NCBI RefSeq assembly: GCF_002843565.1 | Contig: NZ_CP025257.1 | Coordinates: 62,001 to 126,000, forward strand | Length of the DNA stretch: 64,000 bases | Source: Mesoplasma syrphidae | GTDB taxonomy: Bacteria > Bacillota_I > Bacilli_A > Mycoplasmatales > Mycoplasmataceae | Reading direction: 5' to 3' | Shown here: positions 2,122 through 62,081 of the stretch, one piece after another | How the letters are laid out: each line of letters starts with the position of its first letter | Numbering within the stretch: the first letter of the stretch is position 1 | Translations under genes and position numbers: made by a program | Notes under the pieces: generated by a model | The model's database searches: none | Told to the model about the DNA's origin: nothing | The model's input: only the letters and a program-made list of their open reading frames with translations

Positions 2122-2619
2122 TTAAAATGTTAAAACATTTGAAAACCCAGCACAACCTTCAAGGTCCAAGTGTACTTTATAACCTGATTTTATAGCACTA
2201 GAAACGGTGTTGGCAACACAAATATCGGTAGCTACACCTACAATTGTTAATTCGCTTACGCCTAAGTTTTTAAGTAGCTCATCTAAGCCGTTTGAATTGT
2301 TCCTTTCATCATAAAAAGCACTATAACTTTCAATATCTTTATTTTGACCTTTTAATATTACGTGATCAAGGTCAGCCTGATTAATCATTAAATTTGAACC
2401 CTTTTTATTTTGTTCACAATGGTTTCCTCATTGAGCAAAAGAATAATGATCTGCAGGATGTCAATCTTGAGAAGCGATTATTAAATTCTTTTCCTGTTTA
2501 AATTTATGAATTAAATTTGTGATGTGTTGCAACTTAGTTTCTGCTTCAGGAACATATAAACTTCCATCTGGACTAACAAAATCATACTGATAGTCTACAA
2601 TTAGTAATGCATGTTTCAT
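2122..2619 (-). CDS. pncA: Nicotinamidase / isochorismatase-family hydrolase
   Basis: The 165-aa cytoplasmic hydrolase most likely converts nicotinamide to nicotinate for NAD salvage. The start ATG has AAAGGAGA upstream. Catalytic triad candidates are visible: Asp9 (LIVDYQYDF), Lys90 (ILKG) and Cys134 (ATDICVANT). Metal ligands fit the D-x-H pattern at Asp52/His54 (SQDWHPADH). Two TGA codons fall at conserved Trp positions. The length is somewhat short for the family but complete. Substrate cannot be separated from other isochorismatase-fold enzymes by sequence alone, but the motif set favours PncA. Confidence 0.9.
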
Positions 2620-2754
2620 TTCAATCTCCTTTTAAATTTACTAATAATATTCTATAATATAAATTAGTTAATAATTGTCAAAGAATTAATAACTAAACTT
2701 TATTGTTTATATGTCAAAGATATAACAAATCTACAGAAAGAAGATTACTATATT

Positions 2755-4638
2755 ATGAAAAATAAAAACTATGATGTTTTAGTTGTTGGTGGTGGACATG
2801 CTGGAGTAGAAGCTGCATTAGCTTCTGCACGAATGGGCAAAAAAACAGCTTTAATAAATCTTTATGAAGATAAAATCGCAGCCATGCCTTGTAATCCAAG
2901 TATTGGGGGTCCGGCAAAAGGGATTGTTGTTAGAGAAATTGATGCTTTAGGTGGAGAAATGGCAAAAGCAGCTGATGCTACAGCTTTGCAAACAAAACTT
3001 TTAAACTCATCAAGAGGGCCCGGAGTTTGAGCACTTCGTGTTCAATCTGACAAAATTGAATATTCAAAATATATGCAACGAAAAGTTAAGGAACAAAAAA
3101 ATCTTGAGTTAGTTGCTAGCGCAGTTCAAAAACTGCTATTTAATGATTTAAAAGAGGTCTATGGTGTTGGATTAGAAGATGGAGCAGAATTACACGCTAA
3201 GGCGGTTATTTTGACTACAGGGACGTATCTAAAATCTGAAATTCTTAAGGGAGTGGAACGATTTGAATCGGGACCAAATCAAGAGCGAACAACTACAGGT
3301 ATTAGTCAATCCTTAAAAGAATTAGGTTTAAAACTTTTGCGTTTCAAAACTGGAACTCCTGCACGTGTTTATCAAGATTCAGTTGATTTGAGTCATGCAA
3401 TTAAAGAGCCTGGCTCAGACGCTCCTCTAGCCTTTAGTTTTTCAACAACTAAATTCACTCCATTGGCAGAACAACAACTATGTTACCTGATCCATACTAC
3501 AACTGAAACTAAAAAGATTATTGAGGATAATTTGCAAAAATCAGCAATGTACTCGGGAACAGTTGAGTCAATTGGACCAAGATATTGTCCAAGCTTTGAG
3601 GACAAAATTGTTCGCTTTAAAAATAAGGAAACTCACCAAATTTTTATTGAACCAGAATCGCTAAGCGATGATGTTTGATATATTCAGGGATTTTCAACTT
3701 CAATGCCAATTGAAGTCCAAGAGCAAATGTTAAAGTCTTTACCAGGCTTTGAAAATATGCGTGTTAAATCATGAGCATATGCAATTGAATATGATTGTTT
3801 GGACCCAATGCAATTAAAACCTAGTTTGGAACTAAAAGCAGCTAAGAACTTATTTACCGCTGGACAAATTAATGGAACAAGTGGCTATGAAGAAGCAGCT
3901 GGGCAAGGTTTGTTAGCAGGAATTAACGCAGTTAGAAAAATAAATAATGAACCGCCTTTAATTTTAAGACGTGATGAAGCTTATTTGGGAGTTTTAGTAG
4001 ACGATTTGATTAACAAGGGAGTTTGAGAACCATATCGTTTGTTGACATCTAGAGCAGAGCATCGTTTATTGTTAAGAAATGATAATGCCGAGCTAAGATT
4101 GAAAGAATATGGATATCAAATTGGTTTAATTAATGAGCAAGAATGAATAGAGTATAAACAATATATTAGGGAAATGGAAAATGCTGTTGAAGAATTGAAA
4201 GCAATTCGCTTCACTCCCAAATCTGAATTAGCAGCTAATTTAAAAGCTAAAGGGCAGGCAAATTTGACTCATGGTTATAGTGGCTTAGAAATTATTAAAA
4301 TTCCAACTGTCGATATCAACGAATTAGTACCATATGTTAAAACACTACAAAATTTAAAAGTAAATCAGTTGCAATCAATCACAATCGAAATTCGTTTTGA
4401 GGGATACGTAAAAAAAGAGCGTCAACAAGTAGAAAAATTAGTCAAATTAGAACGTAAGCAAATTCCAGAAGATATTGATTATAATAAAGTAGAAAATTTA
4501 GCAACAGAGGCTCGCCAAAAACTAGTTAGGGTTCGTCCCTTAAATATTGGTCAGGCATCAAGAATTACTGGAGTTAATCCAGCAGACATTCAAATGCTGT
4601 TATTTTACTTAAAATCAGCTTATGCAAATGCAAAATAA
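2755..4638 (+). CDS. mnmG: tRNA uridine-5-carboxymethylaminomethyl modification enzyme MnmG (GidA)
   Basis: The 627-aa FAD protein, with MnmE, modifies the wobble uridine of certain tRNAs. The N-terminus has the dinucleotide-binding motif ([14 protein letters not shown]), followed by the family signature region [12 protein letters not shown] and later GTPARV. The family hallmark near the FAD site ([14 protein letters not shown]) is intact, and the helical C-terminal domain ends with the typical ITGVNPADI block. The length is normal. The leader contains TATAAT near 2652 and a weak ribosome site (AGAAAGAAG). It stands alone, with a terminator after it. Confidence 0.97.
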
Positions 4639-17663: not shown

Positions 17664-17737
17664 TTTTAAAGATTATAATGACTTTTAAAGATTTTATAAA
17701 TATAATAAAATATAGATTAAAATCATATGGAGGCATT

Positions 17738-18733
17738 ATGGAAATAACTGTAGTAGAAAAAAAGGGTAATAGAAGAGCTATTAATTATTGATTAGTATTC
17801 TTTTTAATAATTTTCTTAGCATCATTTGCTGTTGCAATGTTAATTAAAATTTTAAACCCAGTATTTAACCAAGAAGAGGGGCTTACAAAAGACTTTTTGT
17901 TTGGACCTGCAGGAGTAATCAACTTTAGTTTGGCAAATTGAAATAACGGAGTCGCATTTAGAGTAGATTTTATTGCTAACATCTTTTTATTAATTGTGGC
18001 ACCAGCTTCATTTTTAATATGAGTTCTTTTATCAATTCTTGCGATTTATACAGCAAATGACGAAATTGTAATTGAACAAAACGAAGAGATAATTGCTGAA
18101 GAATCAAAATGTGAGATTAAAGATTTTTCGCCAATTTTTAATATTAATTGTGTTTGTGGAAAAAATGAAGAGACAACCCTTGCTGAAAGTAGCCAAATAG
18201 ATGAAAATCAGATAGTCATAGAAAAACTAATGATTGAAGAAAAGATTGAGGAAGAAGTGTTTGAAAAAAATCAAGAAGCTCAAGAGAACAATGAAGTTTT
18301 GAGTGGCGAAGAAGTTATTAATGAAAAAATTGAAATTGAAGAGAAAACGAAAAGAAAAGTAGCTAGTAAAAAAGCTGAGCCAATTGTAGTTGAAGAAACA
18401 ACTAAAGAAATCATTAAACCAAAAGCAAATAAGACTCCTAAAATTAAAAAAGAGCAAGTTTCTAAAAAAATGATTTTGGATGAACTTATAGCGAATAATT
18501 CAGACATTTCTAAAAAACGAGTTAAAGCAATTATGGACCATACTTTTGCAACTATGCAAAGAAAACTACAAGAATCTGAAGAAGTGACAATTTCAGGTTT
18601 TGGTAAATTGGTAACAGTTGCTAAGCCTTCAAAAGTTTCTCGTAATCCTTTAACTGGTGAAACAATTAACATACCAGCTCAAACTGGGGTTAAATTTAAG
18701 CCGTCAAAAACTTTGAAAGAAAAAATGAAATAA
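17738..18733 (+). CDS. Membrane-anchored HU/IHF-like DNA-binding protein
   Basis: The frame codes for 331 aa from ATG with TGGAGGC upstream. Domains in order are a basic N-terminus (KKGNRR), a transmembrane helix at about 17-36, a loop of about 40 residues, a second helix at about 79-103, a charged linker (104-239, acidic then Lys-rich with KTPKIKK), and a C-terminal HU domain (about 240-331). The HU signatures are SKKMILDEL, the turn ISGFGKL, the DNA-arm motif SRNPLTGETINIPA and the ending FKPSKTLKEKM. The positive-inside rule puts both termini in the cytoplasm, so the HU domain faces the nucleoid. It could tether the chromosome to the membrane; this function is inferred. The whole frame has no TAA or TAG. 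Confidence 0.85.
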
Positions 18734-18754
18734 TTATCAAATATAATATTAAAT

Positions 18755-18826
18755 AAAAAATACTCAAATATAATTTAACAAAATTTTAAATTTTGCCTTT
18801 ATCTTAATATTCGAGTATTTTTTCTT
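18755..18826 (+). terminator. Long-arm terminator after the HU-fusion gene
   Basis: AAAAAATACTC (18755-18765) is complementary to GAGTATTTTTT (18813-18823). A smaller A/T hairpin lies inside the loop. The distal arm runs into a T-rich tail. Confidence 0.6.
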
Positions 18827-18866
18827 TTTAAATAATGCTGGCATTAGTTTATTAGTAGGAGATATT

Positions 18867-19622
18867 ATGAAAACAAGAATTACAAAAATTATTGCAACAT
18901 GTTTTTTATTTGTTAGTGTGATTACGTGTATCTTTAATATTGCAACCATTAAGCAGGGATATGAAGTTAATCGAATTAAAACAGATCAAAGAGTTGTCAT
19001 GCTTACCTTTGATGATGGGCCTACAACTGACGATTTAGATATTCTAAATATTTTGAAATCAGAAAATATTCATGCTACATTTTTTATGACAGGTGTAAAC
19101 TTAGCAAAATATAAAACAGATCAAAACGTAAAAGTTGTTGTTGATAGGATAATAAAAGAGGGCCATACAATTGGTAATCATACATACAACCATAATGAAT
19201 ACATTCATAATGAAAAGAAACTGATTGAAGAAATTCAAAAGACTAATCAGCTAATTGAAAATGCTTATGTTGAAAATAATGTTTCAATTTTGAAAAAAGA
19301 AATTCCAGTTCGCTTATCGTATTTGCAATATTTTAAAGGAATTGACTTTGTTGAAAAACAAGTCGGCATTAAATATTTGGTAAGAGGTTATTTAGGAACT
19401 GATTATAACGAAGAAATTACTGGCAAAAATAAAATAATCAATCAGTACATGTCGCATTTATCTCCAGGAAAAATTTTTGTTTGTCATACCCGAAGCTACG
19501 CTAAAGTTTGACTTCCCAAACTTATAACTAATTTAAAAGAAAAAAGCTACAGTTTTGCGGCATTTAGAGATGACGCAGGTCAAATGGATTCGTATAAAAA
19601 ATATGGAAAGTTGGTGTTTTAA
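18867..19622 (+). CDS. Polysaccharide deacetylase-like (NodB homology) protein, membrane-anchored
   Basis: The 251-aa protein has an N-terminal hydrophobic segment (residues 7-29) without a clear lipobox, probably an anchor placing the enzyme outside. NodB motifs are largely present: motif 1 TFDDGPTTDD with the catalytic base and metal Asp, motif 2 GNHTYNHNEY (H-T-x-x-H), and a late IFVCHTRSYAKV holding the distal His. The usual R-x-P-[FY] motif 3 is degraded to VRLSY. Substrate is unknown, since a wall-less cell has no peptidoglycan to deacetylate; a capsule or glycolipid sugar is possible. Its stop overlaps the next ATG (TAATG). Confidence 0.82.
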
Positions 19623-61163: not shown

Positions 61164-62081
61164 ATGAACTCTTATGAATTAATTTATGATTTTAAAGAAA
61201 ATAAGCACTATAATAACGAATTATACAATATTATTAAAAAATCGCCAAAATCTTATTTTGAAGATTGAATGCTGAAAGGGCACTGGGATGAAAATTATTA
61301 TCCAATTGCTTTAATCAATGAAAAAAATGATATTGTAGCAGCAGTATGTATTATTAGACTTAACTTGTCAATTAACGAAGTTAAATGCAATGCAATTCAA
61401 GTGGGACGAATTTTTATTCGTGATGGCTACGAAAAAGATGAGGTCGATAAAAAGCTTTTAAATCTTGTTGCTGAAAAGTATTCAAATGTATCTGATTTGA
61501 TTTACTCTTTTAGTGATTCTGAAACTGATGCACTATTTTATAATAGCGAATTTCAGAAAATCCAAGAATTTATTTATTATATTCCTTGAAACTCATCATT
61601 TGAAACTGAAAAGACCGCTATCAAAAAACTTGATACCGATTCAGTTAAGGACATTGAATTTATTCAAGATCATATCAAACATGCAACTAAGACTCCATCA
61701 GTAATTGCAAGTAATGGAGATTCAAGCGTGAAACTTTATAATATATTAAAATTTTATCGACGTAATGTATATTACATCTCTGAAATTGATGCGGTGGTCG
61801 TTTTTACGATTAATCAAGTCAAAAAGCGTTTTACATTAGTGGCGATTTATTCATCGAACAAAATTGATATTATGGATCTCTTAAAAATTTTAGTTCCTGA
61901 TGGAATTGAAAGAATTGAATTTATGTTTATCCCAAATTTAAGTTGTGGAGTTAATATCCGTAGATTATCTTTTATTGAAACACCTGAGGGTAATGTTCCT
62001 TCATATTTGTATATGAAAGAAATTACAACTGCTCTTGCAGGTAAAAGAATATTTTTCCCTGTTTTGGGAAGAGGAAAATAA
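61164..62081 (+). CDS. GNAT-fold acetyltransferase-like protein, unknown substrate
   Basis: The 305-aa cytoplasmic protein has a first half with GNAT-like order: a strand with AAVCIIRLNL, then AIQVGRIFIRDGYEKDEV followed by a helix (DKKLLNLVAEKYSN), then DLIYSFSDSETDALFYNSEF, recalling the acetyl-CoA region and the end strand of two-domain acetyltransferases. The R/Q-x-x-G-x-G/A loop is only partial. The second half (about 170-305) is mixed alpha/beta and unrecognised. It is monocistronic, with its own promoter and terminator. Confidence 0.6.

Follow-up and report, generated by a model that had tools for sequence, protein, structure and literature searches.

A membrane-anchored HU protein of Mesoplasma as a candidate tether between nucleoid and membrane

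The gene at 17738–18733 encodes a protein of 331 aa in which a predicted two-helix membrane hairpin and a long charged linker are placed in front of a complete HU/IHF domain, and this protein is probably a nucleoid-to-membrane tether of a non-centromeric kind, that is to say, an HU on a membrane leash. The window, i.e., the whole stretch of DNA analysed, is 64 kb long and corresponds to positions 62001–126000 of an AT-rich mollicute genome consisting of one contig of 908,214 bp. The initial annotation had treated the protein as a one-off; it turned out to belong to a clade-specific family of several paralogues, of which a second member is encoded in the same genome. The features of the locus are as follows.

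17701..17706, + strand: promoter-like −10 element TATAAT, 17 nt after ATGACT at 17678, with the same layout 5′ of the M. seiffertii orthologue
17729..17733, + strand: ribosome-binding site GGAGG serving the 17738 start, identical in M. seiffertii
17738..18733, + strand: membrane-anchored HU gene, an open frame under code 4 with orthologues
17738..17788, + strand: positively charged N-tail, predicted cytoplasmic (residues 1–17, net +2)
17789..17854, + strand: transmembrane helix 1 by hydropathy, with K37 of the hairpin motif (residues 18–39)
17855..17974, + strand: loop, predicted extracytoplasmic, with N40, GPxG and D77 of the hairpin motif (residues 40–79)
17975..18049, + strand: transmembrane helix 2 by hydropathy, with N81 (residues 80–104)
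18050..18454, + strand: charged linker, acidic overall (residues 105–239)
18455..18730, + strand: HU/IHF domain; the GFG turn is present and the RNPLTGE arm for DNA binding is intact (residues 240–331)
18750..18830, + strand: terminator-like long stem with T-run 3′ of the gene (z −3.1 against shuffles)

The frame, which the initial annotation had read as uninterrupted, is open throughout under genetic code 4 and ends with TAA. Three TGA codons are translated as Trp (W18, W68 and W95), each of them within the N-terminal membrane part, and reading with table 11 leaves only a C-terminal piece of 167 aa starting from 18230. The GGAGG sequence lies a few bases 5′ of the 17738 start, and M. seiffertii has the stretch TATGGAGGCATTATGGAAATA unchanged; a further in-frame ATG is located upstream at 17678. 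A frameshift or a start near 18230, which had been named among the findings that would undo the fusion, did not appear. No Shine-Dalgarno-like sequence was found upstream of the ATG at 18230, and its methionine (M165) is replaced in M. seiffertii and hence not conserved, by which a separate internal start is ruled out. A frameshift or assembly artefact is likewise ruled out, since M. seiffertii (L034/L036, full length, 75% identity) and the remaining two genomes of the genus (L038 in G001 and L039 in G003) carry the whole fusion unbroken. Promoter-like matches near 17701 are no more frequent than in shuffled sequences, so that it is conservation that speaks for this element, and the stem at 18750..18830 was not reported by a simple pattern scan. 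The gene order purA-purB-gene-deacetylase is shared with M. seiffertii. A mobile-element or plasmid origin was rejected, because the plasmid search matched HU domains only, with no record that covered 80% of the query, the PHROG match was confined to the HU part, and synteny with M. seiffertii holds across the locus. The next gene downstream (18867–19622, + strand) seems to encode a polysaccharide deacetylase whose N-terminus contains a membrane segment, which is odd in a wall-less cell; its identity was read from the motif TFDDGPTTDD, and in M. seiffertii, too, it is the neighbour of the HU gene.

The two-helix anchor and the charged linker of the initial annotation were both recovered. Transmembrane assignments, here as in all membrane HUs, were made by hydropathy, and the two windows in this protein are residues 18–36 (mean 2.84) and 82–100 (mean 2.66). 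The loop of 40 residues between the helices carries a charge of about −1 to −2, and the HU domain has a net charge of +9; according to the positive-inside rule, the protein would adopt an N-in/C-in hairpin with the HU domain in the cytoplasm. An AlphaFold model computed from two sequences places helices and HU-like elements in the expected order with low confidence (mean pLDDT 46), and its best Foldseek matches are HU/IHF proteins, with high rmsd; in view of the pLDDT, the model was given no weight in the argument.

The HU/IHF fold, which had also been claimed, was borne out by a profile search: Pfam PF00216 matches residues 243–330 over positions 3–89 of its 90, with an E-value of 2.3e-24 and 85.9 bits (cut-off 22.4). 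Other models of the superfamily match the same domain far less well (PF18291, E 1.9e-07; PF18175, E 0.021, under the cut-off), and the lead of PF00216 over PF18291 by about 17 orders of magnitude places the domain outside HU-HIG/HU-CCDC81. With the NCBIfam HU/IHF equivalogs, every score is far below the cut-off (e.g., NF001401, 60.9 vs. 111). Since the soluble 91-aa HU of the host also falls under these cut-offs, the telling features against canonical HU are size and fusion. The closest solved natural HU is that of Spiroplasma melliferum (5ogu/5l8z, E 1.6e-11). The DNA-binding arm, with RNPxTG and basic residues, is present as SKVSRNPLTGETINIP (residues 298–313); in HU-DNA structures, the arm proline wedges into the DNA. 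By its sequence, therefore, the protein is a member of the HU superfamily and is not a canonical HU.

There are three HU domains in the host genome, namely the soluble HU (C1:600553-600822), the protein described here, and another membrane HU, 308 aa long, at C1:51558. The taxonomic survey combined a PF00216 search of 60 genomes from the GTDB family of the host with reading of the loci; 12 of these genomes were found to encode hairpin-linker-HU proteins, at least 23 in all and up to 4 per genome, and a soluble HU is also kept in each of the 12. The carriers belong to genera g1, g2 and g5 only (the Mesoplasma/Entomoplasma branch); g5 takes in putative M. florum L1, M. tabanidae, M. chauliocola, M. 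coleopterae and E. melaleucae, and the putative M. florum L1 genome (793,224 bp) contains two members, located at about 503.0 and 778.4 kb. In g8, g11 and g12, genera named Spiroplasma-like by our own reading, long HU fusions were not observed, and among the matches listed in an order-wide search of 298 genomes there was no HU frame outside the family longer than 157 aa. In genus g10, paired neighbouring soluble HU fusions of about 230–245 aa (L061 and L062) were found, which have unnamed N-terminal regions and no predicted membrane segment.

The membrane HUs can be divided into three types. Type A is the 17738 gene, intact in four species. Type B often contains a C-terminal TKWTG motif, and one B gene adjoins mnmG in g5 and g2. 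Type C consists of five proteins, conserved in several species, which have lost the arm NP and possess an extra domain; because of this loss, not all members would be able to bend DNA as HU does. The arm NP is kept in every A and B member. The contig begins at dnaA, with the 17738 gene 80 kb and the second membrane-HU copy 51 kb away from it, and the B gene adjoining mnmG is found within about 15–21 kb of dnaA in G004 and the complete g5 genomes; this closeness may be mere synteny. In the HU-domain tree (94 columns), a supported branch (95/99) separates the canonical HUs and the soluble g3/g10 fusions from the membrane types, on whose side two soluble M. seiffertii relatives (L037 and L045) are also included, and an outlying long-branch sequence (L066) falls outside both sides. 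The tree fits a single origin of the membrane HUs with secondary loss of the hairpin, of which 94 columns are no proof. At the type B locus of M. seiffertii (L045, around 2480–3363), the membrane part is interrupted by in-frame stops, and the HU piece has its own frame of 144 aa; this locus is in a draft assembly, and its broken look is possibly a sequencing error.

In comparison with M. seiffertii, the dN/dS values are 0.064/0.502 for the hairpin, 0.084/1.243 for the HU domain and 0.357/0.751 for the linker, from which it follows that the hairpin and HU are under purifying selection and the spacer between them drifts. Linker residues 149–236 are only 48% identical between the two species. A positive N-tail and two strong transmembrane segments were present in 21 of 21 members examined. 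Linker charge was dropped as a conserved feature when its sign was found to differ between types (net −9 to −21 in type A and +11 to +25 in most type B members of the M. florum group), and since net charge is not conserved, no common electrostatic role can be assigned to the linker.

On this anatomy, the following course of events is proposed. The two helices would insert into the plasma membrane as an N-in/C-in hairpin, and the flexible charged linker, roughly 135 residues long, would extend into the cytoplasm. The HU domain would then bind DNA with little sequence specificity and would pair as a homodimer, or as a heterodimer with the soluble HU or another membrane paralogue. The nucleoid could thereby be held to the membrane at distributed, non-centromeric points, and such a tether might aid the spacing, spreading or segregation of the chromosome in cells without ParABS. 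From insertion and topology through dimerisation and DNA binding to the role in tethering or segregation, these steps are what we infer from sequence. The tether reading is favoured because the HU domain is complete with an intact DNA-binding arm, because the hairpin-linker-HU order recurs while soluble HU is kept alongside, and because ParB is missing in the 12 genomes and a precedent exists in Rv3852. The membrane tether of the initial annotation thus stands as regards the HU fold, the anchor and the predicted cytoplasmic position of HU; tethering itself is the most likely reading of anatomy, conservation and context.

The hairpin also has to be considered as a module. Its motif in the numbering of this protein is K37, N40, GPxG, D77 and N81, and profile searches recovered the same hairpin in HU-less proteins, where it is accompanied in some by an N-terminal domain of no known kind and in others by the tail 'DGS...LRDMTKKEL' at the C-terminus. 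The hairpin of type B seems to have diverged from this form (hhalign probability 86%, E 5.6e-6). Outside the family, only three chance-level matches were obtained in the 298 genomes of the order. One HU-less protein of G001 (L043 2965–3900, − strand) carries two tandem hairpins. In a series of larger proteins (L040/L115, L120, L111, L112, L113 and L114), a small N-terminal domain judged SH3/KOW-like by eye and a long disordered middle precede a hairpin near the C-terminus; proteins of this kind are found in g9, g11 and g12 too, and the anchor module is probably older than the HU fusion.

The conserved hairpin motif, which suggests more than a greasy anchor, leads to the explanation that the protein is a membrane-bound regulator working in the one-component manner of CadC/ToxR, with the hairpin or outer loop sensing and the HU/IHF-like domain acting at limited sites. 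The several diverged paralogues in many genomes would fit specialised roles, and the HU/IHF fold is able to be sequence-specific, as in IHF. However, the same hairpin is joined to unrelated cytosolic cargo, which a generic anchor, and hence a tether, explains better than a dedicated ligand sensor, and the arm of the 17738 protein resembles the general HU arm; a regulator is accordingly regarded as unlikely.

A tail domain of about 70 residues without a Pfam name ('ERAKLDGSDSI.E.RSELQKHAN.MR...NLRDMTKKEL..YMR') was observed at the C-terminus of various proteins, after a low-complexity linker. It occurs at G000:C1:591395-591595 (L137) and at L134, L135, L146, L153, L145, L154, L063, L064 and L042, and its carriers, by sequence reading, are putative bS16, bL20, bS6 and uS5, PTS transporters, membrane-hairpin proteins and some HU fusions. 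It is confined to genera g1, g2, g3, g5 and g10, and is possibly a tag for sorting, degradation or clustering. The joining of the hairpin to this domain, which elsewhere sits on putative ribosomal proteins, together with the conservation of type C without the NP residues, speaks for a reading in which the HU domain belongs to a membrane complex and serves there for dimerisation or for binding RNA or protein, the binding of chromosomal DNA being incidental. For the type A protein studied here this is rather improbable, however, as it retains the full arm with NP, and so do all B types.

A membrane storage form, from which a protease would release soluble HU by cutting the linker on a signal, agrees with a linker that is long, fast-evolving and of a protease-accessible type, and with the soluble relatives of the same HU domains in M. 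seiffertii (L037 and L045); but the drifting linker contains no conserved cleavage motif and the genome already has a normal soluble HU gene, making this explanation very unlikely. The last explanation, that there is no stable fusion and the gene is a decaying duplicate, a frame error or an internal-start soluble HU, could appeal to the broken-looking type B locus of M. seiffertii, where the HU piece is a separate frame, but for the 17738 gene it is refuted by the type A genes, which are intact in four species, by the start and ribosome-binding site, which M. seiffertii shares, and by dN/dS values clearly below 1 in hairpin and HU.

The chromosomal context of the proposed tether was considered through ParABS. 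ParB is absent in all 12 membrane-HU genomes and present in 42 of the remaining 48 genomes of the family; the other six, sister genomes from g3 and g4 (g3 takes in putative Williamsoniiplasma and E. freundtii), have neither ParB nor membrane HU. As for ParA-type ATPases (PF13614, AAA_31), no full-length one was found in the 12 membrane-HU genomes, where one short frame (G003) and one sub-threshold match (G031) were recorded. The loss of ParB is thus older than, or independent of, the membrane HU. Because such losses are inherited by descent and six genomes are without both, the association may be a single coincidence, and the link between ParB and membrane HU is only suggestive. The same six genomes leave a strict replacement of ParABS by the membrane HU unsupported, and the segregation role put forward in the initial annotation is only suggested. 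In the model of JCVI-syn3A, which has no ParABS, chromosome handling is primarily achieved via SMC complexes (PMC13142093). A fuller scenario, in our view doubtful, would be that after ParABS was lost in the ancestor of the branch, the Mesoplasma lineage fused HU to a clade-specific hairpin and multiplied the fusion, so that the chromosome became attached non-specifically over the whole membrane with no centromere.

The proposal bears on how the chromosome is placed and divided in wall-less, near-minimal cells without ParABS. In the non-subscription literature that was searched, neither a description of a membrane-anchored HU in mollicutes nor an experiment on any member was found. If the proposal is true, a distributed HU tether would be an undescribed way to hold and segregate a chromosome, and with this family in Mesoplasma, where the tractable M. 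florum L1 is among the hosts, a direct link between chromosome and membrane becomes accessible to testing.

Among known systems, the nearest is HU itself (Hbs, S. melliferum HU, PF00216), with which the protein shares the complete fold by sequence, including the GFG turn and the RNPxTGE arm. However, ordinary HU is free and of about 90 residues, whereas here a two-helix hairpin and a long charged linker are added in front, and all canonical HUs sampled lie across the 95/99 branch from the membrane HUs. The HU-CCDC81 and HU-HIG clades (PF18175 and PF18291) belong to the same superfamily and occur in multidomain proteins, but the domain described here is far closer to PF00216; some bacterial proteins of these clades are membrane or SPOR fusions. 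The links formed by Noc/ParABS and DivIVA-RacA are alike in their presumed job of joining chromosome to membrane and have no sequence relation to the protein. For Rv3852 of M. tuberculosis, it has been reported that the protein binds DNA while its TM helix holds it in the membrane, with a more diffuse nucleoid, and that it condenses the nucleoid when the helix is removed (PMC8233713). The likeness lies in a DNA-binding chain with its own hydrophobic membrane segment or segments: in the 17738 protein, which is known as a sequence, the two hydropathy peaks and the HU domain are likewise found in one frame. The two differ in build, Rv3852 being described as having H1-like KAAK/PAAK repeats with a single C-terminal helix and the 17738 protein having an N-terminal hairpin with an HU fold; the former would be a functional analogue. 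It is plausible, by this analogy, that the membrane-anchored HU of Mesoplasma, a variant within the HU superfamily, works in the manner of Rv3852.
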